Shown here: piece after piece, positions 9,566-21,695 of the stretch
How the letters are laid out: every line of letters begins with the position of its first letter
Position numbering within the stretch: the first letter of the stretch is position 1
Origin: Candidatus Krumholzibacteriota bacterium
Lineage (GTDB): Bacteria; Krumholzibacteriota; Krumholzibacteriia; JAJRXK01
Assembly (NCBI GenBank): GCA_024276305.1
Contig: JAJRXK010000111.1
Coordinates: forward strand, 1 to 64,000
DNA: 64,000 nt
Reading direction: 5' to 3'
Notes under the pieces: generated by a model
The model's database searches: none
What the model was told of the DNA's origin: nothing
What the model saw: only the letters and a program-made list of their open reading frames with translations
Position numbers and translations under genes: made by a program

Positions 9566-11698
9566 TTGCGAACGGTGAACGCCATGCCCGGATTCTCTCG
9601 CCCTGGGCCGGCCCACCTCAGTGCCGGCATTCTCCTTTCTCTCTCCATCTTCGCCCACGTCGCTGGAGCTCAAGTCGTCTACGTCGAACAAGCCGTGGCT
9701 CGGGGAATCGACCTGACCTGGTCGAACAACTATCCCGTCGGTGACTTCGGATCGGGCATCGCCATGGAGGACTTCGACCACGACGGAGACCTCGACGTCT
9801 TCGTCGGAACGAAGAAGGGCCAAGGGCTCGGAATCTACCGCAACAACGGAGCAGGCTCTTTCTCTCCGGTCACCACCCTCGACATCAGCCCCGACCGCGA
9901 CATCAAGCAGGTCCTCTTCGCGGATCTCGACAATGATGGCTGGCGAGACCTCGTGCTGACGGTCTGGAACCCCAATCCGACCGGCACGTCCTTCGTCGAA
10001 AGCACGATCCGCCTGTACCGTGCACTCCCGGGAGGAGGATTCGCCGCCCACCACGATGCCGTCGTCGACTCCTCGATGGCCGGCCTCGCCACCGGAGTGG
10101 CGGCGGGAGATGTGGATCGGGACGGAGACCTCGACCTCTACGTCAGCGTCTGGAAGCCGGGAACTCCGGATGACACCAGCCGCAACCGCTACCTTCGCAA
10201 CGATGGCAATTGGACCTTCGTGGACCGCGCCGGTGCCCTGGGCATCGATGACCGCAAGAAGAGCTTTCAGGTCATGATCGCCGACCTCAGTCTCGACGGC
10301 TGGCCCGACATCGTGATCGCCGAGGACAAGCGAGGAGGAGCCACCTACTACGAGAGCAATGGCGACGGAACCTTCACCGATCGCACCGTAGCCAGCGGTC
10401 TCGACGGTTACCTCTTCGTCGGCGGCCGGTACATCGATGGAATGGGATTGGCGGTGGGAGACTACGACGGCGATCTCGACCCGGATGTCTACATCACCAA
10501 TATCTTCGACGGAAACATCCTCTACCGGAACGACAACGGGACCTTCGTCGATCGGTCCATTCAGACTGGCACCGAAAGCACCCGCATCGGCTGGGGATGC
10601 ACCTTCTTCGACTGCGACAACGACCTCTTCCAAGACCTCTTCGTAGTGAACTTCGGAATGAGCGGCGCCGCGAACAGCCAGGACCGTCTCTACCGCAACC
10701 AAGGAGACCAGACCTTCGTCGACATCGGTCCGGCTTCGGGAATCACGCTCACCGAGGATGGCTTCGGAATGGCCGTGGGCGACCTCGACGGCAATGGCGC
10801 GGTGGACATTCTGGTCAGCCAGGGGAAGGCTCCCATTCGGCTCTGGATGAACGAGGGCAGTGTCGGCAACTGGATGCAGTTGGAATTGGTGGGCACGACT
10901 TCCAACCGAGATGCGGTGGGGGCCACCGCCACGGTCTACACCGGCGCCCAAGCGCAGTTCTTCGAGCAGCACGCCGGAGAGAGCTATCTCAGCACCCATT
11001 CCCACGCCATGGATGTCGGCCTGGCTTCCTACACCCGCGCAGATTCGGTGCGAGTCTGGTGGCCATCCGGTCACACCGAAGTCTGGACCCAACTCGTGGC
11101 CGGGCAACGACACCTTCTGGTCGAGGGGAGTTCGGCCGTGCCCGCGGTCACCGCGCCCGCCTTGACCGCCCAATGGACGGCTTCGCGCCTCGAACTCTCC
11201 TGGGAAGTCTTCGACCCCGAGCTCTTCGATCGCTTCGAGCTCTGGCGCGATGGTCCGGCCCCCACGCTCATGGTCAGCCTTCCTTCGGAGATGCAGAAGA
11301 CCCGCTACCGATGGACCGACCTCGACCCCCGCAGCGAGGGCTCCTACATCCTGCGTTCGGTGTTGAGGCAGACCGGCGAGGTGCTGACCACGATCTTGCA
11401 GGCTCCGCGAGCTCCTCGGGTGGGAGAGCTGGTGGTCGACCCGCCGCGCCCCAATCCCTTCAATCCGCGAGTATCGCTGCGCTTCTACTTGCCGGACCAC
11501 CAACGTCCGGTTCTGCGAATCCTGGATCGCCGCGGCCGCGAAGTGACCCGGCTCACCGCCCCCCAAGGTCCGGGTTGGCACAGCGTGATCTGGGATGGCC
11601 GGGACCGCAGCGGACGGAGGGTTGCCAGCGGCACCTATTCCCTCGAGGTGCGATCGGGAGCCCGAGCCCGAAGCGTCACCATGTCTCTGGTGCGTTGA
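9566..11698 (+). CDS. Secreted FG-GAP/ASPIC-UnbV repeat protein with FlgD-like C-terminal domain
   Basis: 710 residues from TTG 9566 (GAGG 7 bases upstream); ATG 9584 is an alternative that keeps the signal peptide (LSAGILLSLSIFAHVAGAQ). The body has repeated FG-GAP/VCBS blades with Ca-binding-type loops, for example DFDHDGDLDVFV, DVDRDGDLDLYV and DYDGDLDPDVYI, predicting a beta-propeller. An ASPIC/UnbV domain covers about 430-505 (NWMQLELVGTTSNRDAVGA). After a fibronectin-like region comes a C-terminal domain starting PRPNPFNPRVSLRF (about 627) and ending in WDGRDRSGRRVASGTYSLEV. This FlgD-like sorting or attachment domain is common on secreted proteins of FCB-related phyla. It is probably an extracellular or surface-bound protein; the ligand is unknown. 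Single gene, own promoter. Confidence 0.88.
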   Translation: MRTVNAMPGFSRPGPAHLSAGILLSLSIFAHVAGAQVVYVEQAVARGIDLTWSNNYPVGDFGSGIAMEDFDHDGDLDVFVGTKKGQGLGIYRNNGAGSFSPVTTLDISPDRDIKQVLFADLDNDGWRDLVLTVWNPNPTGTSFVESTIRLYRALPGGGFAAHHDAVVDSSMAGLATGVAAGDVDRDGDLDLYVSVWKPGTPDDTSRNRYLRNDGNWTFVDRAGALGIDDRKKSFQVMIADLSLDGWPDIVIAEDKRGGATYYESNGDGTFTDRTVASGLDGYLFVGGRYIDGMGLAVGDYDGDLDPDVYITNIFDGNILYRNDNGTFVDRSIQTGTESTRIGWGCTFFDCDNDLFQDLFVVNFGMSGAANSQDRLYRNQGDQTFVDIGPASGITLTEDGFGMAVGDLDGNGAVDILVSQGKAPIRLWMNEGSVGNWMQLELVGTTSNRDAVGATATVYTGAQAQFFEQHAGESYLSTHSHAMDVGLASYTRADSVRVWWPSGHTEVWTQLVAGQRHLLVEGSSAVPAVTAPALTAQWTASRLELSWEVFDPELFDRFELWRDGPAPTLMVSLPSEMQKTRYRWTDLDPRSEGSYILRSVLRQTGEVLTTILQAPRAPRVGELVVDPPRPNPFNPRVSLRFYLPDHQRPVLRILDRRGREVTRLTAPQGPGWHSVIWDGRDRSGRRVASGTYSLEVRSGARARSVTMSLVR

Positions 11699-11730: not shown

Positions 11731-12810
11731 CTAGACCCCGGCCCCGATCTCGAAGCGGCGTAGCTTGGAGTAGATGAGGTCGATGTCGCGTTCTCGAGCT
11801 TTGCGCGAGAGTTCCTCGTTCACGCGCAGCGCCTCTGCGGCCCGCGGTCCGGCCTCGCCGTGGTAGGCGTAGAAGGTGTCGCGGTAGTACTCCCGGCGAT
11901 CGCGGTGACGGGCGGGATGATCGATCGCCTCGAACACCGCCTTCACCAATGCTTCGCCGGATTCCACTCGATCTCCCGCATCGCGGTAGACTCTCTCCAC
12001 ACAGTCGGTCATTTCCAAGCCTGGCTGATCGAGGAGGACCACCGGCGTATCCGTGGCGCAGGCCTCGAAGATCACGCCGCTGTAGTCAGTCAGCACCACA
12101 TCGGCCGCCACCACCGCTTCGATCCCCGCCCGAAGCGGAGAGATCATCCGGGTGCGGGATCGGAGTCCCTCGAATCTCGGTCCTTCCTTGAGGTAGCTCA
12201 CGGGATGAAGCTGACTGAGTACTTCGACGCGAGATGCGACTTCGGTGAGAGCTTCGGCGTAGATCTCATAGGTGCACAGATCCCCGAGGGTGGGGGCGTA
12301 GAGGACTACGGTGGCATCCCCATCGATGCCCAACTCCTGCCTCGCGGACTCGCGGGTGAGCACTCCATTGAAGTAGTCATCCAGTTTCGGATAGCCCACC
12401 ACTCTGGCCGACACTCCCTGCCGCTCCATCAACTCCCGTCCGAAGTCCGAAGCCACGAAGATCTCGTCGTAAGGAAGATTCTTGTCGCTGTAGGTGTATT
12501 GCTTGCTGATCACCGCATAGAGCATCCGGACTTGTCGGGTATAGGTCTGTCCCACCATCCGCGGCTCGATTCCCAAGGTGGCGAAGACATTGGGCTCGAC
12601 CTCCAGCGAACCGCAGATCGACCGAACTCCCCGCTCGGCCAACCACACCATGGTCTCGCGAACGTGCTGGGCGTGGATGGCGGGATCTTCGGGAAGGTGC
12701 CACTTCCAGGGAGAGACGTGGATCGTGAACTCCTCGGGGGAGAGATGGCGGAGTACCGGCTCCCAGTTGCGGTAGTGCCAGGGTTCGTTGATGCTCAACA
12801 GGATGGACAT
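11731..12810 (-). CDS. CDP-glycerol glycerophosphotransferase-like (TagF family) transferase
   Basis: 359 residues from MSILLSINEPW; the longer frame before it only overlaps the previous gene. The C-terminal half matches the glycerophosphotransferase fold: VVLYAPTLGD, then LHPVSYLKEG, then the nucleotide-binding signature VLTDYSGVIFEACATDTPVV. Family members move a polyol-phosphate from a CDP carrier onto a glycan or lipid acceptor at the cytoplasmic face of the membrane. Here it is the last gene of the phosphoramidate-like operon and overlaps the formyltransferase-like gene by 16 bases. A CDP-linked donor made upstream makes it the best candidate for the transferase that uses that donor, but it could equally use CDP-glycerol or a related polyol. 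Confidence 0.8.
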   Translation of the reverse strand: MSILLSINEPWHYRNWEPVLRHLSPEEFTIHVSPWKWHLPEDPAIHAQHVRETMVWLAERGVRSICGSLEVEPNVFATLGIEPRMVGQTYTRQVRMLYAVISKQYTYSDKNLPYDEIFVASDFGRELMERQGVSARVVGYPKLDDYFNGVLTRESARQELGIDGDATVVLYAPTLGDLCTYEIYAEALTEVASRVEVLSQLHPVSYLKEGPRFEGLRSRTRMISPLRAGIEAVVAADVVLTDYSGVIFEACATDTPVVLLDQPGLEMTDCVERVYRDAGDRVESGEALVKAVFEAIDHPARHRDRREYYRDTFYAYHGEAGPRAAEALRVNEELSRKARERDIDLIYSKLRRFEIGAGV

Positions 12811-13532
12811 GACCGAACTTCCGGAAGGGGGGAAGCGGCGGACCGACAACATTCCAAGGACCGCGCCGCCAAATGCTTGAGAACGGGATGGATGACGTAG
12901 AACATCTGACCCTCTTCGGAGTCCTGGTTCTGGCCGGAGAAGTGGGGCTGGGCCAGGAGAAGTTGGAGCGCCTCTACCAGAACCGTCGCTCGAACCCACG
13001 CGTCGAGATTCTGATCGAGGTCTTCGGCCCGCCACTGCGCAGTGGGCCGGAATCGACGTCGGCAGACGATCGCCCCGGCATCGAGGCCGGCTTCGAGAAA
13101 GAAGGCCGTCGCCTCGATCGCGCCCTCCAGGAGCAATCCGTAGTAGTGGCAAGTGCTCCCCCGCCAGTCGGGCAGCCGGCCGGGGTGGACGTGGAGCCAT
13201 CTCCCCGCGGCGTCCAGGGTCGAGGGACGAAGGATCCCCCCCCCGCTGAACACCGCCAATTCGGCTCCGCACTTCCGGACCGCCTCGACGACCTCTCCGT
13301 GATTCGGATCGAGAGACACACCCTCCTGGTAGGGCCACCCCGCCCGAGCCAAGGTCTGGCGCAGGGACTCCCCGGGGTCGAAACCCGGCAGGTGCGAAGA
13401 GGAGGCGATGCTGCGGTCCTCCGCTTCACTCCCTTGGAGGATCACCATCTGCGGCCGCAGACCGGCCCGGTGGACGAATTGGAGATAGGCCCGCCCGCGG
13501 GGAGTGGGACTGGCCAACAACACCCAACCCAT
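12795..13532 (-). CDS. Formyltransferase-like protein (Fmt fold, altered active site)
   Basis: 245 residues from MGWVLLASPTPRG. The region HVHPGRLPDWRGSTCHYYG (114-132) with LDAGAIV (150-156) matches the folate-dependent formyltransferase fold (methionyl-tRNA or sugar formyltransferases). In that family Asn-His-Asp is catalytic. Here His116 and Asp151 are present, but the Asn position is His114. The usual C-terminal tRNA-binding domain is missing, so it is not the housekeeping Fmt. It may formylate an amino-sugar or have become another acyl or one-carbon transferase. Its start touches the stop of the previous gene (TGATG), so it belongs to the same operon. Confidence 0.72.
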   Translation of the reverse strand: MGWVLLASPTPRGRAYLQFVHRAGLRPQMVILQGSEAEDRSIASSSHLPGFDPGESLRQTLARAGWPYQEGVSLDPNHGEVVEAVRKCGAELAVFSGGGILRPSTLDAAGRWLHVHPGRLPDWRGSTCHYYGLLLEGAIEATAFFLEAGLDAGAIVCRRRFRPTAQWRAEDLDQNLDAWVRATVLVEALQLLLAQPHFSGQNQDSEEGQMFYVIHPVLKHLAARSLECCRSAASPLPEVRSCPSC

Positions 13533-14254
13533 CAGATACCCCCTCCTGCGACCCGAGCCTCGAGAGATTCGACGAGGCGACGCTCGAGGTGAATGGCCGC
13601 CGCCAGGCGGGCTCGATCTGCAGCCGACAAGATCCATCCTCCGAAGCGAACCCCGGCCGAAGCCAAGTCGAGGAGTTTGAGGCAAGCGTTGACTTCGGCC
13701 ACCGACCGGTCGCGGTGCAAGGGCGAGTCCACCCAGGCCAACCAGGCGCAGAGCAGGGCCAGACGCACCACCACTTCGGGGGGGTTGGGATCGGACTTCC
13801 GGCGTCGCCAGCGATGATCGTATTCGGAGTGCACACAGCCGAAGGCTTCGAAGCGTCTCAACAGGAGCGTGATCCGTTCGCGGGCCCACTGCGATTCCTC
13901 GGCGAAGCCCGCGAGTTGATCCGGCCGAGGAGCCAATCCCTCGATGAGCTCTTCCAACAGCTGGCCGGCAGAGCGAAGTCTTCCCGGGGACATCGACTCC
14001 CACTTCTGGCGCAGAGAGGAGAGGGCCGCGCAGCGACCGGCCACGGAATCGGGGCGCGCAGGGCTGCGAGAGACCGACGAGTAGCGATCGACTTGGCCCG
14101 AGACCTCGAGCTGGTCGGCGTCGATGGCCCGCAGAGCAGCATCCCGAGCGGAGACGAAGGCCTTCAGGAAGTCCGGCCCCTGCAGGGGAGAGAAACTGTA
14201 GGGCTTGCGCTCTTCCAAGCGCGGAGGCTGATCATATGCGTAGGCCGGGTTCAT
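13532..14254 (-). CDS. Unknown protein of the phosphoramidate-like operon
   Basis: 240 residues from MNPAYAYDQPPRLEERKPYS. I do not recognise a family. It looks cytoplasmic and mostly alpha-helical, with many Arg, Ala and Leu; a partly hydrophobic helix (VVVRLALLCAWLAWV) lies near 165-180, and a His/Arg-rich segment (HSEYDHRWRRRK) precedes it. There is no signal peptide. It sits between the GATase and the formyltransferase-like gene. The ATG overlaps a TGA in the frame that continues from the GATase (ATGA) and its own stop overlaps the next start. Its position argues for a role in making or transferring the modification. The longer upstream frame (to 14458) was rejected on codon grounds. Confidence 0.7.
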   Translation of the reverse strand: MNPAYAYDQPPRLEERKPYSFSPLQGPDFLKAFVSARDAALRAIDADQLEVSGQVDRYSSVSRSPARPDSVAGRCAALSSLRQKWESMSPGRLRSAGQLLEELIEGLAPRPDQLAGFAEESQWARERITLLLRRFEAFGCVHSEYDHRWRRRKSDPNPPEVVVRLALLCAWLAWVDSPLHRDRSVAEVNACLKLLDLASAGVRFGGWILSAADRARLAAAIHLERRLVESLEARVAGGGI

Positions 14255-14364
14255 GTCTCGACCACCTCCAGTCTCGCCCCCGCAGCGACGGGCAGGAGAT
14301 GGTCGAGGACATCCTCGACGCGACGACCGCGCAGGAGCCCTCCCAGAAGGGGAAGAGCCAACCA
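14251..14364 (-). other. In-frame extension of the GATase beyond its TAG stop
   Basis: After the GATase TAG (14367-14365) the same frame stays open for 37 codons (WLALPLLGGLLRGRRVEDVL and on, ending ARLEVVET). It ends in a TGA that overlaps the next gene's ATG as ATGA. Codon third positions are about 70% G/C, unlike the other open frame here. It is either the true C-terminus cut off by a nonsense mutation or sequencing error, or a tiny separate ORF from TTG 14361. Confidence 0.45.
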
Positions 14365-14979
14365 CTACACCGAACCCGGACGCTCCGGGTGCCACATCAA
14401 GCCGGTGATCGGATCGGTCGCGTGAGTGAAGAGTTCCACCGACCCGTCGGTGCTCCATCCCCAGGGCTCCAAGCCCCCCCCGAGCTCCTCGGGGGGAAGG
14501 ATCCAGCGATGGAAGCTGTTGACGAAGAGGCCGGCTTGGCCCCGGCGACCTCGCACTCGAAGTTCGTGGCGGACCGCGACATGAGATCCCGGGACGGCAT
14601 CCGGCCGCATCGCTCCTCCGAAGTAGCGATTCAGCATCTGGGCGCCCCGACAGACTCCCACCACCGGGAGATGGCGGTCCCGGGCCAGACCAATCAGCCT
14701 TCGCTCCGTCTGGTCGCGCTCGGGTGCAGAGTCTGCAGCGGGAGACGAGCCCGCCGTGGCCAGGTCATTTCCTCCGGTGAGCAGCAGCGCATCCACCTGC
14801 GCCGCGGCGAAGATCCGGCGGGCGAGTTCGACCTCATTGGGAATGAGAAGGGGGAGGAGGTGAAGGCGCCGGAAGCAGTCGGTCCAGTCCTGGGCCAGAG
14901 CGTCGCGACGCTCTCCGTACTCGGGATCCACCAGGACCCGTTGGGAGACTGCGACCCGGATCGGATCATCCCAACACAT
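14365..14979 (-). CDS. Class I glutamine amidotransferase, gamma-glutamyl-CDP-amidate hydrolase-like
   Basis: 204 residues from MCWDDPIRVAVSQRV, overlapping the upstream fusion gene by 14 bases. It is a class I glutamine amidotransferase / peptidase C26 fold with nucleophile elbow GVCRGAQ (Cys110) and catalytic His197/Glu199 in MWHPER. PuuD-type enzymes hydrolyse gamma-glutamyl amides. In Campylobacter the Cj1417 enzyme of this family cleaves CDP-L-glutamine to glutamate and cytidine diphosphoramidate. Its place right after a glutamine kinase-like and a cytidylyltransferase gene supports that reaction here. The frame ends at TAG only a few residues after the catalytic His/Glu; an open, coding-like extension of 37 codons follows, so the C-terminus may be truncated. 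Confidence 0.82.
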   Translation of the reverse strand: MCWDDPIRVAVSQRVLVDPEYGERRDALAQDWTDCFRRLHLLPLLIPNEVELARRIFAAAQVDALLLTGGNDLATAGSSPAADSAPERDQTERRLIGLARDRHLPVVGVCRGAQMLNRYFGGAMRPDAVPGSHVAVRHELRVRGRRGQAGLFVNSFHRWILPPEELGGGLEPWGWSTDGSVELFTHATDPITGLMWHPERPGSV

Positions 14980-17900
14980 GGATCTGCTCCTGACCGCAGT
15001 CGAGCTCGATGGACGAAGCCCGAGTACAGGCCTCGAACCGGGCGGCGCCGCAACCGATGGCGGCCGGCAATCCGAATTCCGCACAGCGGATGGTCATGTG
15101 GGAATTCGCGCCCCCGAAGCGAGTGATCAGTCCGGCGATGGAACGGGCGAAGATCCAGTCATAACCAGGGTCTGCGCTCTCGATGAGCACGATGTGTCCA
15201 GAGAGGTCCGCATCGAAGGACCGCACCGAAGTCTCCCCCTCCATCGGACCGATGCAAACGACGGGAGCCGACACGCTCTGGGAGGTGACGAAATTGGGGC
15301 GTGATTCGGGCTGGCGCACGATCTCCAGATCCTCCGGCCCACAGAGCAATTCCCCCAGCAGGATGGCGGCGTCGGACTGCCTCCGGATTCGCGCTTCGGC
15401 GACCTGGCGCAGCAGCTTGTCTCCCAGACGAGAGGGGAAGGGCCGTCCGCAAAGGGCGAGGAGATCGTGGATGTCGAGCATGGCCACCTCGCCGCGGCTC
15501 AAGCCGTGACGGTCTCCGAATTCGGCCAGGAGTTCGAGGGCCGCGCTGAGACTGTGAGTGAAACCGAACTTGGCCTCCTCGCGCCCGCGGATCGCCTGCG
15601 CGACGAAGGCGAAGAGCTCGTCCACTCCGATCTGGAGGGGGGAGGCCTCGAGCCGTTCGCCGATCCTTCTCCGGCTCTCTTCGCTGAGAACGAAGGCCGA
15701 GGACCTCCGCTCCGAAGTGGCCGGCTCCGCCCCCTTCCCCAGACCATCGGCCGGCGGCGGAAAGTAGAGTCCCGGATCCTGGTCGTAGCGCTGGGAGAGG
15801 ATGTCGTAACTCCCGGGGCGCAGGTGACAGTAGCGATGAAGAAAGGCTTCGCGCGAAGCCTCTCCCCGGCGCACGGCCTCGAGTTCGTCGAGCATCTCGG
15901 AACTGACCGTCCGCACGCTCGTCAAGAAGTCCTCGAGTTCTCGGGGCCGCAGCGCCTCGACGGCCACCAGTGATCGCAAGAGAGACGTTCCCACGAAGGC
16001 CAATCGGGCCATGGTCGCAAAGGGCAGCGTCCCGTCGCGAATGGTGAGGGCCAAGAGCTCCGAAATCCGGGCCAGCAAGGCGGGCGAGACCGCCCCCTCG
16101 GTCAACGAGGCATGCACTTCGGAGAGCGACGAGGTCCGCGAGAGGAGCCCCTCCATGATGGATCCACCGCAGCGCAAGAGTTCCCGGGTGTGCTCGGCCA
16201 CGGCCCGTTCGCAGCGCCGGGCATCTTCGCAAGAGAGTCCCTCCTCTTCCAAAGCCTTCAGCACTCGGTCCAGCTCGAAGTTCCAGGCGGTGGGAAAGAC
16301 TTCGAATTCGATCTTGTCGTGGAGCTGCGGTCGGTGACGCAGACGACTTAGGCCGGCATCGACCACCCGGCTTCGCACTCCGGCGTCGAGGTGAGCCGGA
16401 AGCAGGTTGTTCGCGCTGAGACGAACATCGATGTAGGGACGACTCGCCAACTCCACCATCAGGGCGTGGGGGAAGGGATCGGCGTAGCCAATCGCGCTTC
16501 GGCCCAATCTCCAAGTGTGGTCGGTGATCAACAATTCGTAGAGCGATCGGGCCAGGGGGCGGGGAAAGGGGCCGATCATCTCCGCCGGATTCCAATCCGG
16601 CATCTGACCGAGGATCGTGGTCTGTCCCCCGACCTTGGGCCAAGGGGAGAAACGATGGTCGAGGAAGTCCCGGAGCGCGGCCAGGGATGAGCTCTGCGCC
16701 TCCGCGTCCACCGAAGTCCACGAAGACTCGGTGGCGATGGGTCGCACTTGGAGCACGTGCAATTCGCCATCGGCGGTCTGGGCGAATTCCACGTCGAGGG
16801 CGTCGGAGCCGGTGATGGCCTCCAATTCAGCGGCCGTAGTCCAGAGTGCGGCCAGAGTCGCATCGTCGGGGGGTGAGGAGGCATCCCGGCGAATCTTCAC
16901 CACCTGAGTCTCGGCGGAGTTGCCCGCGGTGACACTGTCGGTCCGTCCGCTGGCTGCATCGTAGTGGATGACGAGATAGTCTGCGCCGGTGTCCAGATCG
17001 CGGGTCATCATCACTCCGCTGAGGACGACTTCCTCGAGGCAGGGCTGGATGAGGACTTGATTGGCAACGTTCTGTCCGTCCCGGCCGTAGCTGTCGACCA
17101 CCTGCTGTACCGCCGACGCGATCGAATCCACATCGTCGCTCTCGACTCCAATGACGCTTTCGTAACGGCCGGCCTGACTGGCCGTCGCCGAATCCTCGGT
17201 CAAGGCGCTGCTGCGAATGGCGAGAGGCTGCCCGCCGAAGCGCTCCGCGAGAGCGGTGGCCACTCCCGAACGATCCTGCATCCACTCGGCCACCTGAACG
17301 CGTACCCCGTCTTCGATGCGCGCGCTGGTCAGATGGGGTCTCAATCTCTCGAGGGTCTCCGCCTTGGTCCCGAAGACGAAGTGCGACAAATCGCGTGCGG
17401 TGTCGAGCTCCGCATAATCGCCTTCGACCCACACCACCTCCACCCGTCCTCCCTGGTCGACGATCTCCTGCAAGAGATCGGTCAGATGCCCGTCGCGAAG
17501 ATTGCGTCGGTCCTGATAGGGTCGATCCCGATAGACCTCTTCGAGGGAGTGATAGACCGAACGCAGAGCGCGAGCTCCCCTCTCGGTGAATTTCGCCAGA
17601 CCGATGAACTCCCCGTCGGCTGCGATCCCGCCGGGCAATCGCTTGCCGATCCACCGGACCGCATTGCCGCTCACCACGACCTTTTCCGCCAGGGCCAGCG
17701 AAGCTTCGGCCCGTCCCTCGTAACGCGACTTCCAAGAGCGATCGACGACGATGGCCAGATCCGCTTCGCAATCTCGGAGCGACCGCACGGTTTCCGGACG
17801 GTAGACGATGTCCGAATAGGAGAAGTAGAAGGCGCCGTCCATTTCCGACTCGGCCGCAAAGAGGGAACCCAGGACATGCTCCTCTTCCCACCGAGGATTG

Positions 17901-18112
17901 TGGACATAGCGCAATTGGGGGTAGTGCTGGCGAATCTGCTCCATGGCATCTCCGCCCACGAAGACCACCTCGTCCACTCCCCCACCTTCGCTCAGCGCAT
18001 TGAGGAGCCAATCGAGGACCCGCCAGCCGGTGATTCCTTCCACCAGGCACTTCGGCGTGGTCGAACCGGATACCCGGATTCCCCGACCTGCTCCCAGAAG
18101 AATCGCCTTCAT
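14966..18112 (-). CDS. Cytidylyltransferase-glutamine kinase fusion (Cj1416/Cj1418-like)
   Basis: 1048 residues from MKAILLGAGRG. Residues 1-about 250 are a nucleotidyltransferase (GAGRGIRV with PKC, Lys21). Residues about 270-500 are the PEP-synthase/PPDK ATP-binding domain (AIRSSALTEDSATASQAGRY near 300). The C-terminus is the mobile phosphohistidine domain FGGANSHMTIRCAEFGLPAA with catalytic His1005. A PEP or pyruvate-binding barrel is absent, as in Campylobacter Cj1418, which phosphorylates the amide nitrogen of L-glutamine via phosphohistidine. The N-terminal domain would then join phosphoglutamine to CMP. Both steps on one chain would channel an unstable phosphoramidate. The start overlaps the previous stop (ATGA). 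An antibiotic kinase or other PEP-synthase-like kinase is the alternative, made less likely by the neighbours. Confidence 0.85.
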   Translation of the reverse strand: MKAILLGAGRGIRVSGSTTPKCLVEGITGWRVLDWLLNALSEGGGVDEVVFVGGDAMEQIRQHYPQLRYVHNPRWEEEHVLGSLFAAESEMDGAFYFSYSDIVYRPETVRSLRDCEADLAIVVDRSWKSRYEGRAEASLALAEKVVVSGNAVRWIGKRLPGGIAADGEFIGLAKFTERGARALRSVYHSLEEVYRDRPYQDRRNLRDGHLTDLLQEIVDQGGRVEVVWVEGDYAELDTARDLSHFVFGTKAETLERLRPHLTSARIEDGVRVQVAEWMQDRSGVATALAERFGGQPLAIRSSALTEDSATASQAGRYESVIGVESDDVDSIASAVQQVVDSYGRDGQNVANQVLIQPCLEEVVLSGVMMTRDLDTGADYLVIHYDAASGRTDSVTAGNSAETQVVKIRRDASSPPDDATLAALWTTAAELEAITGSDALDVEFAQTADGELHVLQVRPIATESSWTSVDAEAQSSSLAALRDFLDHRFSPWPKVGGQTTILGQMPDWNPAEMIGPFPRPLARSLYELLITDHTWRLGRSAIGYADPFPHALMVELASRPYIDVRLSANNLLPAHLDAGVRSRVVDAGLSRLRHRPQLHDKIEFEVFPTAWNFELDRVLKALEEEGLSCEDARRCERAVAEHTRELLRCGGSIMEGLLSRTSSLSEVHASLTEGAVSPALLARISELLALTIRDGTLPFATMARLAFVGTSLLRSLVAVEALRPRELEDFLTSVRTVSSEMLDELEAVRRGEASREAFLHRYCHLRPGSYDILSQRYDQDPGLYFPPPADGLGKGAEPATSERRSSAFVLSEESRRRIGERLEASPLQIGVDELFAFVAQAIRGREEAKFGFTHSLSAALELLAEFGDRHGLSRGEVAMLDIHDLLALCGRPFPSRLGDKLLRQVAEARIRRQSDAAILLGELLCGPEDLEIVRQPESRPNFVTSQSVSAPVVCIGPMEGETSVRSFDADLSGHIVLIESADPGYDWIFARSIAGLITRFGGANSHMTIRCAEFGLPAAIGCGAARFEACTRASSIELDCGQEQIHVLG

Positions 18113-18924
18113 GCCGACTCCCGGAGGGCGGGCCCACGCACCAACTCCCGCAGAGCCTGCCACTCAGTGCCGGCCGCGATGCGCTCGGCCACTCGTTGGT
18201 CCGCCAGAGAGTCGACCTCGGTCCACCCTCCGTGAATGGGAATGGCTTGGACCGCCACCCCCTCGCGGATGAGCCCCATCAGGAGGTCCGTGAGGTAGGC
18301 CTGTCCGAAGGTGCGGGAGGATCCGAAGGCCTTCTCGCCTCGGTCTTCGGCCTCCTTGGCTTCGACGAGAGCTCGGCGGAAGGTCTCGCATCCCGCCGGC
18401 GAAAGGCGGATCATTCCGATGTACTGCGCGTCGATCTGATCGAGGCTGGTGGCGACCTGTCCCACTTCGAGGATCTCTCCGCCGGGACCCAGCCGCAGGG
18501 TCTCGGCATCGGCCAGGGGATCTTCCATGCGCTGACGCCAGAGTTGGTGCCAGTCGTGGTCGACCACCACCCCGATGGGCGCACTGCAGGCCTTGGCCGC
18601 GTCGACCACCGAAGGCTGGTAGAGCAGATCGGTGTAGGCGACGAGCAGATCTCCGCGCAACTCGTCGAGAGCACAGTAGAGGCTCTGCACCATGTTGGTG
18701 TGGTTCCAGTCCTCATTGTCGATGAGACGCAGGCCCCGACCTCGGATGCGGGTGCGACAGTAGCCCCGCACCACCACCACCTCCTTCACCCCCGCGGCGC
18801 GCAGAGCTTCGAGTTGCCAGCTGAGCAGGGCGGCTCCCCCCACTTCGACCATGCACTTGGGCCGGTCGTCGGTCAGGGGGGAAAGTCGTCGACCGCGGCC
18901 GGCGGCCAGGAGAATTGCCTTCAT
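18109..18924 (-). CDS. Nucleotidyltransferase (Cj1416/phosphocholine cytidylyltransferase-like)
   Basis: 271 residues from MKAILLAAGRGRRLSPLTDD. It has the nucleotide-binding loop AAGRGRRL (7-14) and PKCMVE (Lys23), then NHTNMVQSLYCA and the metal-site region AYTDLLY, typical of cytidylyl/uridylyl transferases such as LicC and Cj1416. It resembles the N-terminal domain of the next gene, so the operon carries two related domains. One may activate phosphoglutamine and the other a second phosphorylated compound (a phosphocholine- or polyol-phosphate-like molecule), or one may be redundant. First gene of the operon; its stop overlaps the fusion gene start by 4 bases. Confidence 0.83.
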   Translation of the reverse strand: MKAILLAAGRGRRLSPLTDDRPKCMVEVGGAALLSWQLEALRAAGVKEVVVVRGYCRTRIRGRGLRLIDNEDWNHTNMVQSLYCALDELRGDLLVAYTDLLYQPSVVDAAKACSAPIGVVVDHDWHQLWRQRMEDPLADAETLRLGPGGEILEVGQVATSLDQIDAQYIGMIRLSPAGCETFRRALVEAKEAEDRGEKAFGSSRTFGQAYLTDLLMGLIREGVAVQAIPIHGGWTEVDSLADQRVAERIAAGTEWQALRELVRGPALRESA

Positions 18925-19035: not shown

Positions 19036-19130
19036 ATCCGATCTCGGACTGGCGGAGGACTGTCCACCCTGGCCGAGCCCTGGTCGGCCCCTCGTCCGCG
19101 GCCGCGGCAGGGAATGCCCCCCAAACGAAC

Positions 19131-19154
19131 GGCCCGCCCCACGAGGGGCGGGCC
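19131..19154 (-). terminator. Terminator of the Cys-rich secreted protein gene
   Basis: Perfect 10-bp stem GGCCCGCCCC / GGGGCGGGCC with an ACGA loop, followed on the minus strand by GTTCGTTT. It lies 36 bases after the stop at 19190. Confidence 0.75.
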
Positions 19155-19189
19155 GAAGGCACCTGGGCAGGGCCTAGGTCTGTTTCGAT

Positions 19190-19886: not shown

Positions 19887-20636
19887 CTAGTTGGACGACA
19901 ATACCTTGGATTGACGTCGGGCCACCACGAGATGAGAAATCCCCGCCGTCTGAGGCCGAAGCAGGACCTGGGAGCCGAATCCGGAGCGCTCCAGGGCCTC
20001 CACGAAGGCCCGAGGGCTGACGAAGCGCCCCATCGATTGGGGCAAGTAGCGGTAGGCGTCGGGAGACTGCCCGAAGAGTCGTCCCAACAGGGGGACGATC
20101 TGCGAGAGGTAGAAGCGAATCGGCGCTTCCATCCATCCTCGTTCGACGTGGAAGAATTCGAGCACCAGGAGTTGTCCGCCGGGGCGGAGAACCCGCGAAA
20201 TCTCTCGCAGGCCCTTGTCCAAGTCGCCCAGATTGCGGAGTCCGAAGCCCACCATCACCGCGTCGAAGGACTCGTCCTCGAAGGGCAAGCACTGGGTGTC
20301 GGCCGCCAGAATCTGGACCTCCCGATCCAGCCCATTCGACGCCACCCCCGCCCGGAGCATGGGCTCGCAGAAGTCCGAAGCGACCCATCGCTGCCCCTTC
20401 CCCGACCTCTTCGCGGTCAGGATGAGTTCCCCCGTACCGCAGCAGGCGTCCAGGAGATCCTGGGCCTGGTCATCGATCTGCGCGGCGAGGGCGCGACGCC
20501 ATCCGGCGTCGAAACCGAAGCTCAGCAGGCCATTCATGCGGTCGTAGACCCCCGCGATGCCCGAGAACATCTCGCGAATCTGGCGATCGTGGACCGCCGC
20601 TTGCTGACCGGTGGTATTTCGAGGAGAGAGGGCCAT
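19887..20636 (-). CDS. ubiE: Demethylmenaquinone/ubiquinone C-methyltransferase
   Basis: 249 residues from MALSPRNTTGQQAAVHDRQI (ATG 20636); the longer frame is a shadow. It has the UbiE family signatures: N-terminal MFSGIAGVYDRMNGLLSFG, SAM motif LLDACCGTGE and GFGLRNLGDLDKGLREISRVL followed by PGGQLLVLEF. The enzyme transfers a methyl group from SAM to the quinone ring in menaquinone (or ubiquinone) synthesis, on the cytoplasmic side of the membrane. It stands alone, divergent from the methyltransferase gene with only about 70 bases between. Confidence 0.9.
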   Translation of the reverse strand: MALSPRNTTGQQAAVHDRQIREMFSGIAGVYDRMNGLLSFGFDAGWRRALAAQIDDQAQDLLDACCGTGELILTAKRSGKGQRWVASDFCEPMLRAGVASNGLDREVQILAADTQCLPFEDESFDAVMVGFGLRNLGDLDKGLREISRVLRPGGQLLVLEFFHVERGWMEAPIRFYLSQIVPLLGRLFGQSPDAYRYLPQSMGRFVSPRAFVEALERSGFGSQVLLRPQTAGISHLVVARRQSKVLSSN

Positions 20637-20705
20637 GGTCTGCGCATGGTAGCCCCTGCGGCGGAAAGACGCCATGCGTGGTCTTTCGAGGCGACTCCGA
20701 CTAGA

Positions 20706-21695
20706 ATGCGGCGGATGTTGAATCAGGAGATCGAGGTACTGCCCCCCCCGCACGTGCGCAACCGCTTCCACCACGGAGCCGGCGTGCTCATCCTTGCGCT
20801 CAACGCCATTCGCCATCGGATCCGAGGTTATCGGACTCCCCGCCCCCGCGGCACCTCGAGGTTGAAGGCGGCCCTGGGTTACGACCGCGCGGTCTTCGAC
20901 AACTGGCAGAGCCACTACCTGGACTACTTTCCCCACGGCGGGGGCTTCGAGAATCGCCAAGTCCTCGAGATCGGGCCGGGGCCGGATCTCGGGACCGGAC
21001 TGCTCTGCCTCGCCGCGGGGGCCGCAAGCTATACCGCCGTCGACGCCCATCGGCTGGTCACCCCCCGCACCGGCGGAGTGCACGCGGATCTGGCCACGCT
21101 CATCGCTTCCGATTTTGCCCACGGACACGAAAGGCTCGAACTCCAGGCCCGACTGCTCCACGCGGTCGAAGCCCTGCACGCCGATCAGGAGGGCCCGCTG
21201 CGCTACCACCACCTTCCGGACTTCGACCTGAGTCCTCTCGCCGGTCAGGACTTCGATCTGGTGCTCAGCCATTCCGCCTTCGAACACCTCACCCATCCCC
21301 GGCGCACCTTGCACCAACTCAGCTCCGTGATCAGCGAGCGTGCTCATCTCGTGGCCGAGATCGACCTCCAGACTCACACCCGATGGATCCGAGACGTCGA
21401 CCCTCTCAATATCTACCGCTATCGTAGCCCGCTCTACGATGGCTTCCGCTTCTCGGGATCGCCCAACCGCTTCCGTCCCGACGAGTATTTGGAGACCCTC
21501 GAATCGGAGAATTGGGTAGACTTGAGGATCTATCCCCAACGGGTGCTCGACCCCGAATACGTCGCACGGATCGAACCGAGCCTCGACCCCGCCTTTCGCG
21601 GAGATCTCGAGCACCTGGGGTGGATGACCATCGTGCTCTGCGCCTCTCGGAAGGGCGAACGGAGCTGGAAGAAGCCCGAAGAGAGCGCATCGTGA
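20706..21695 (+). CDS. SAM-dependent class I methyltransferase
   Basis: 329 residues from ATG 20706 (MRRMLNQEIEVL); ATG 20715 is nearly as likely, since neither has a clear ribosome site and TAGAAT at 20702 looks like a -10. Motif I reads VLEIGPGPDLGTGL, followed by VDAHRLV; the later LVLSHSAFEHLTHP segment matches the motif 4 region of class I methyltransferases. The substrate is unknown. The stop overlaps a GTG start of a glycosyltransferase-like membrane protein, so it may methylate a glycan or its precursor. First gene of a long plus-strand run. Confidence 0.75.
   Translation: MRRMLNQEIEVLPPPHVRNRFHHGAGVLILALNAIRHRIRGYRTPRPRGTSRLKAALGYDRAVFDNWQSHYLDYFPHGGGFENRQVLEIGPGPDLGTGLLCLAAGAASYTAVDAHRLVTPRTGGVHADLATLIASDFAHGHERLELQARLLHAVEALHADQEGPLRYHHLPDFDLSPLAGQDFDLVLSHSAFEHLTHPRRTLHQLSSVISERAHLVAEIDLQTHTRWIRDVDPLNIYRYRSPLYDGFRFSGSPNRFRPDEYLETLESENWVDLRIYPQRVLDPEYVARIEPSLDPAFRGDLEHLGWMTIVLCASRKGERSWKKPEESAS

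Follow-up and report, generated by a model that had tools for sequence, protein, structure and literature searches.

As far as we have found, Campylobacter capsules are the only case in which the biochemistry of how enzymes form P-N bonds for glycans has been worked out. In Campylobacter jejuni, Cj1415-Cj1418 of the O-methyl phosphoramidate (MeOPN) system convert glutamine, ATP and cytidine triphosphate (CTP) into the 3'-phosphorylated cytidine diphosphate (CDP) derivative 3'-phospho-CDP-phosphoramidate (PMC11800397), and glutamine kinase activity has been demonstrated for Cj1418 (PMC10971088). Unmethylated phosphoramidate is reported in the lipopolysaccharides of Xanthomonas campestris and Shewanella (PMC3907429; for Shewanella also PMC3210612). 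Here we analyse a six-gene operon (P1 to P6) in a 64,000-nucleotide stretch from a Candidatus Krumholzibacteriota bacterium (contig JAJRXK010000111.1, positions 1 to 64,000; hereafter the window), whose kinase, P2, carries a fused nucleotidyltransferase-fold domain. We propose, with a probability of about 0.68, that the six genes make cytidine diphosphoramidate (CDP-amidate) and decorate a glycan with it, the second step being performed by the stand-alone nucleotidyltransferase P1.

Like the C. jejuni cluster, the operon groups a kinase, one stand-alone nucleotidyltransferase and a class I glutamine amidotransferase (GATase) (Table 1). It differs in having neither a Cj1415-type kinase nor a methyltransferase, in the extra N-terminal domain of its kinase, and in the added TagF-like, formyltransferase-like and P4 genes. 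The six genes are real: the identical order recurs in two relatives with fusion proteins 57% and 51% identical to P2, and the flanks of the block are unrelated among the three genomes. Both relatives belong to the window's family, G008 also to its genus and G007 to the family only. The same genes in the same order between unrelated flanks argue against a chance arrangement, and the block therefore travels or persists as a unit. A sequence-only reading of this DNA had described six overlapping genes; the genes and their order stand, with transcription on the minus strand from P1 through P6 and overlaps at P1/P2, P2/P3, P4/P5 and P5/P6, but P3 and P4 are separated by ~110 nt, the P4 start at 14254 being backed by two orthologues. 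Convergent with the operon's end, window positions 9566-11698 encode a protein of FG-GAP/ASPIC-UnbV repeats whose C-terminus is FlgD-like.

Table 1. Features of the operon and its upstream border (window coordinates).
Feature	Coordinates	Strand	Length	Family or remark
P1, stand-alone nucleotidyltransferase	18109..18924	minus	271 aa	Pfam NTP_transf_3
P2, fusion protein	18112-14966	minus	1048 aa	Pfam PPDK_N + PEP-utilizers
P2 residues 1-241, fused nucleotidyltransferase-fold domain	17389..18112	minus		
P2 residues 241-1048, predicted L-glutamine kinase part	14966..17392	minus		ATP-binding, middle and swivelling His1005 domains
P3, class I GATase	14365..14979	minus	204 aa	Pfam Peptidase_C26/GATase
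P4, function-unassigned protein	13532..14254	minus	240 aa	nothing above Pfam cut-off
P5, formyltransferase-like protein	12795..13532	minus	245 aa	Pfam Formyl_trans_N
P6, TagF-like protein	11731..12810	minus	359 aa	Pfam Glyphos_transf
Terminator-like hairpin	19130..19155	minus		upstream of operon; 11 G-C pairs, pattern match only

We infer that P2 residues 241-1048 form an L-glutamine kinase responsible for step 1 of the CDP-amidate route. This part is a full-length match to NF004508 (798 bits; cut-off 501), retains the residues invariant across the kinase family, and contains the ATP-binding motif AIRSSALTEDSATASQ and His1005 in GGANSHMTIRCAEFG, the histidine being invariant in 15/15 aligned homologues. 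P2 has no phosphoenolpyruvate (PEP) barrel, as its mobile His domain (972-1039) stops nine residues before the stop codon; on these points the earlier description was accurate. Its score, domain layout and His1005 are those expected of a glutamine kinase that resembles pyruvate phosphate dikinase (PPDK) and lacks the PEP barrel. We apply the name glutamine kinase to NF004508 because its cluster partners are a CDP-amidate-type GATase and a cytidylyltransferase-like enzyme. In the AlphaFold model of P2 (predicted local distance difference test, pLDDT, 83.9; predicted template modelling score, pTM, 0.75), the kinase part is closest to rifampin phosphotransferase by Foldseek.

P1 is most likely the CTP:phosphoglutamine cytidylyltransferase of step 2, by orthology to the enzymes of other clusters. 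It carries the complete residue signature of the 92 stand-alone cluster enzymes, and its nearest structure in the Protein Data Bank (PDB) is LicC, a CTP:phosphocholine cytidylyltransferase. In a tree, 41 stand-alone nucleotidyltransferases including P1 form one clade (support 100/99), which contains the single nucleotidyltransferases of canonical, non-fused clusters; most clusters without the fusion hold one such enzyme (80 loci examined). A stand-alone nucleotidyltransferase and a GATase also accompany the fused kinase at 12/12 fused loci. We assign step 2 to P1 because of this canonical clade, the 12/12 co-occurrence and the residue losses in the fused domains. The sequence-only reading had placed steps one and two on the P2 chain and left P1 without a role, an arrangement that these data do not sustain. 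An origin of P1 and the fused domain as recent duplicates was also considered, and is ruled out by their 32% identity and separate lineages.

The fused domain is a separate lineage and is mostly degenerate across its 13 copies. Fused domains fall outside the stand-alone clade (89/83 as one side of a tree branch). When the 13 copies are aligned with the 92 stand-alone enzymes (P1 numbering), the G-loop Arg13 is kept in 2/13 fused domains, and Lys23 and the second metal residue, Asp238, in 3/13 each, against at least 91/92 stand-alone enzymes in every case; none of the 13 retains Asn77-Met78, Trp129 or Gln167, against at least 90/92. From our reading of the alignment, Arg13 and Lys23 appear to correspond to critical residues reported for this enzyme family (PMC12275187). 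To judge from its place in the tree and from these losses across the fused copies, the fused domain probably does not perform step 2. Its model is well folded, with the G-loop stretch (P2 residues 11-30) modelled less confidently at about 60; it resembles CTP:inositol-1-phosphate cytidylyltransferase (template modelling score up to 0.78 of the target), and GMPPA/GMPPB are among the Foldseek matches of P2. Regulatory nucleotidyltransferase paralogues stand beside active ones in GMPPA/GMPPB and in the subunits of ADP-glucose pyrophosphorylase, where, as here, an altered fold is paired with an active one; the window's copy differs in being fused to a kinase. Retention of fold and association while catalytic residues decay, as with GMPPA and GMPPB, suggests that the fused domain may sense a ligand on the kinase's behalf or provide a docking surface.

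P3 is a probable gamma-glutamyl-CDP-amidate hydrolase (step 3). The best NCBIfam family is the one of that name, NF045546, at 113.8 bits (below its cut-off of 250), with the next family at ~31, and the catalytic motifs are present (Cys in VCRGAQ, His/Glu in WHPER). NF004508, NF045546 and the P1 clade together support the earlier proposal that a glutamine kinase, a nucleotidyltransferase and a GATase constitute a CDP-amidate module here. Synthesis of CDP-amidate by this module is well supported by homology and context because the kinase, the GATase and P1 form a widespread set. A one-genome-per-species scan yielded at least 559 confirmed loci with kinase relatives, so that the description of glutamine kinase as C. 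jejuni-specific in a 2022 review (PMC9561416) does not fit. We kept the 80 loci closest to a non-fused query, a biased sample; their usual set is the kinase, the GATase and one stand-alone nucleotidyltransferase, mostly with a methyltransferase and a gene resembling adenosine 5'-phosphosulfate (APS) kinase, and, chosen as they were by nearness to a non-fused query, 0/80 have the nucleotidyltransferase-kinase fusion. The three-gene module is widespread and spans many phyla.

The sequence-only reading had suggested looking for the fusion in related genomes. In addition to G007 and G008, we find it on Vibrio alfacsensis plasmids (L039, L040), in Pseudohalocynthiibacter (L046), in six Paraglaciecola-family genomes (L150-L155) and in one alphaproteobacterial genome; in Roseovarius pelagicus it was seen solely as a tblastn match. 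The Vibrio, Pseudohalocynthiibacter and Paraglaciecola-family clusters share with the window the fusion, the GATase and the separate nucleotidyltransferase, in the order fused kinase, GATase, nucleotidyltransferase, and some add a TagF-like or LicD gene. They differ in that their fused domain is more decayed, several lie inside polysaccharide clusters, P4 was not found in them, and a P5-like gene occurs in L154 only. On the kinase tree, which has long branches, a single origin of the fusion is neither demonstrated nor rejected (approximately unbiased test, p-AU 0.106). In V. alfacsensis pVa1 the stand-alone nucleotidyltransferase (L039:15611-16237) is shortened to 208 aa, against 259 aa in L040, its frame being broken near the end.

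Kinase fusions of at least three kinds occur in our survey. An APS-kinase-like (Cj1415-type) domain is fused to glutamine kinase at L054, L057-L060, L063, L067, L068, L077 and L124, in Acidobacteria and others. A kinase-GATase fusion (L045:652-3687) lies on MT837632.1, a contig from human faeces deposited as phage that looks bacterial from its thioredoxin-reductase-like and MurC-like frames. A viral origin was considered, but a single partial contig was all that spoke for it. On an Agrobacterium vitis plasmid (L043), the kinase, GATase and nucleotidyltransferase adjoin a LysE-type exporter and a CDP-alcohol transferase with no polysaccharide genes nearby, and the product of that cluster is possibly a small-molecule phosphoramidate. 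A Cupriavidus taiwanensis plasmid (L044) carries an orphan family kinase near nif genes, with no GATase or nucleotidyltransferase nearby, and a plasmid of the cockroach hindgut isolate Deltaproteobacteria bacterium Smac51 (L041:11773-18265) has an MeOPN-like set with a methyltransferase and an adenylyl-sulfate kinase-like gene.

The sequence-only reading had noted the lack of a Cj1415-type kinase and supposed that the product made could be something other than MeOPN, and both points hold. The operon contains no Cj1415-type (APS-kinase-like) CDP-amidate kinase; in the window's genome the sole APS-kinase domain is part of a 956-aa frame on a different contig, and genome G007, which carries the whole block, has none. 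The profile of the cluster methyltransferase has no match within 8 kb of the operon; two other methyltransferases lie at 19887-21695, the UbiE-like one on the minus strand, the other on the plus strand. We compared 12 fused with 85 plain loci, which are related and non-random, so that the p-values serve as a guide only: a Cj1415-like kinase is rarer at fused loci (1/12 against 70/85, p 8e-7), as is the methyltransferase (0/12 against 62/85, p 1e-6), and TagF-like genes are commoner (6/12 against 5/85, p 3e-4).

These patterns, seen alongside the family of P6, make it a candidate transferase of unmethylated phosphoramidate from CDP-amidate to a glycan. P6 matches PF04464 (Glyphos_transf) at 53 bits (cut-off 22.1), and its nearest PDB structures are TagF (the best), Cps3D and TarL. 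A TagF-like gene adjoins the fused kinase in Vibrio too, and elsewhere the module stands beside LicD (L152) or a CDP-alcohol transferase (A. vitis), which belong to other enzyme classes but, like TagF-like proteins, draw on CDP-linked donors. Among 80 genomes of the phylum, only the three with a fused kinase contain P5- and P6-type genes. P5 scores 26.8 bits against Formyl_trans_N, but formyl transfer is doubtful because the catalytic Asn of the NxH motif is replaced by His (LHVHPG), a change common to its aligned relatives; the His and Asp of the catalytic Asn-His-Asp set are kept. Pseudomonas, Verrucomicrobia and Treponema have relatives of P5 in the vicinity of their kinase clusters. In Pseudomonas and relatives (L053, L055, L070, L126), formyltransferase-like, APS-kinase-like and TagF-like genes lie on the strand opposite to the kinase, GATase and nucleotidyltransferase. 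Searched against Pfam, NCBIfam and PHROGs, P4 yields no family hit that reaches cut-off; it is mostly helical, with a structure model of pLDDT 50, too low to be of use, and its orthologues, 32% identical, were found in two relatives only.

Working from gene order, homology, co-distribution and residue loss, we propose the following route. The kinase part of P2 would use ATP and His1005 to N-phosphorylate the amide of L-glutamine; P1 would couple the resulting N-phosphoglutamine with CTP to give CDP-glutamine; and P3 would hydrolyse off the gamma-glutamyl group, leaving CDP-NH2. P6 would then attach phosphoramidate, unmethylated, to a surface glycan through one of its hydroxyls, with release of cytidine monophosphate. 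P4 and P5 would be accessory, and the N-terminal domain of P2, as a nucleotidyltransferase-fold paralogue, would most likely either sense a ligand for the kinase or give P1 a surface to dock on.

Several observations weigh against this proposal. The likeness to Cj1415-Cj1418 comes from family profiles and cluster context, and NF004508 is titled only 'hypothetical protein', the glutamine kinase identity resting on its cluster partners. The P3 score lies below the NF045546 cut-off of 250, a shortfall not peculiar to P3 since cluster GATases elsewhere score alike (75-141 bits). The usual donors of TagF-type enzymes like P6 are CDP-glycerol or CDP-ribitol. All three genomes with the full six-gene block belong to one family, and no glycan-assembly or polysaccharide genes lie close to the operon in the window, which is why its 'surface' destination is a prediction only. 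Finally, the window's own fused domain retains Arg13, Lys23, Asp99 and Asp238.

Those four residues, together with the well-predicted fold, are what would favour an active phosphoglutamine cytidylyltransferase in P2, which would then perform steps one and two while P1 activates something else. We consider this distinctly unlikely: the same domain lacks Asn77-Met78, Trp129, Asp139 and Gln167, all present in P1 and in at least 90/92 stand-alone enzymes, Arg13 is gone from its two closest relatives, the canonical clade takes in P1 but leaves out the fused domain, and most non-fused clusters manage with a single P1-type enzyme. We call step-2 activity of the window's copy unlikely, and no more than that, because the four key residues remain. 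They would equally suit a cytidylyltransferase for another phospho-compound that supplies P6 with a second CDP donor, a reading to which the TagF-like character of P6 and the LicC-like enzymes outside kinase clusters, the domain's nearest sequences after its two orthologues, also lend themselves. Its chances seem small to us, since most of the 13 fused domains have lost catalytic residues though the fusion, GATase and stand-alone enzyme persist, and the operon holds no kinase for another substrate.

The kinase might instead phosphorylate pyruvate, an antibiotic or an amide other than that of glutamine, with a small molecule rather than a glycan decoration as the product of the cluster. The rifampin phosphotransferase-like fold and the non-glycan settings of related kinases in A. 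vitis and Cupriavidus fit such a role, which we hold improbable given the full-length NF004508 match, the CDP-amidate GATase and nucleotidyltransferase at 12/12 fused and most plain loci, and the position of the fused clusters of Vibrio and several Paraglaciecola-family genomes among polysaccharide genes. CDP-amidate synthesis with P1 at step 2 remains our preferred reading.

More tentatively, and with less confidence than we place in the pathway itself, we raise the possibility of a distinct phosphoramidate branch, spread over at least three bacterial classes. In it, a built-in pseudo-cytidylyltransferase would control or couple the glutamine kinase, neither methylation nor 3'-phosphorylation would take place any longer, and the transfer of bare phosphoramidate to glycans would fall to an enzyme of the TagF or LicD type. 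Its end product would, like the phosphoramidate of X. campestris and Shewanella lipopolysaccharides, carry no O-methyl group. For bare phosphoramidate glycans like these, the methylation-free variant is a candidate route, and fusion of a pseudo-nucleotidyltransferase to a kinase offers a testable means by which a labile intermediate could be controlled or channelled.

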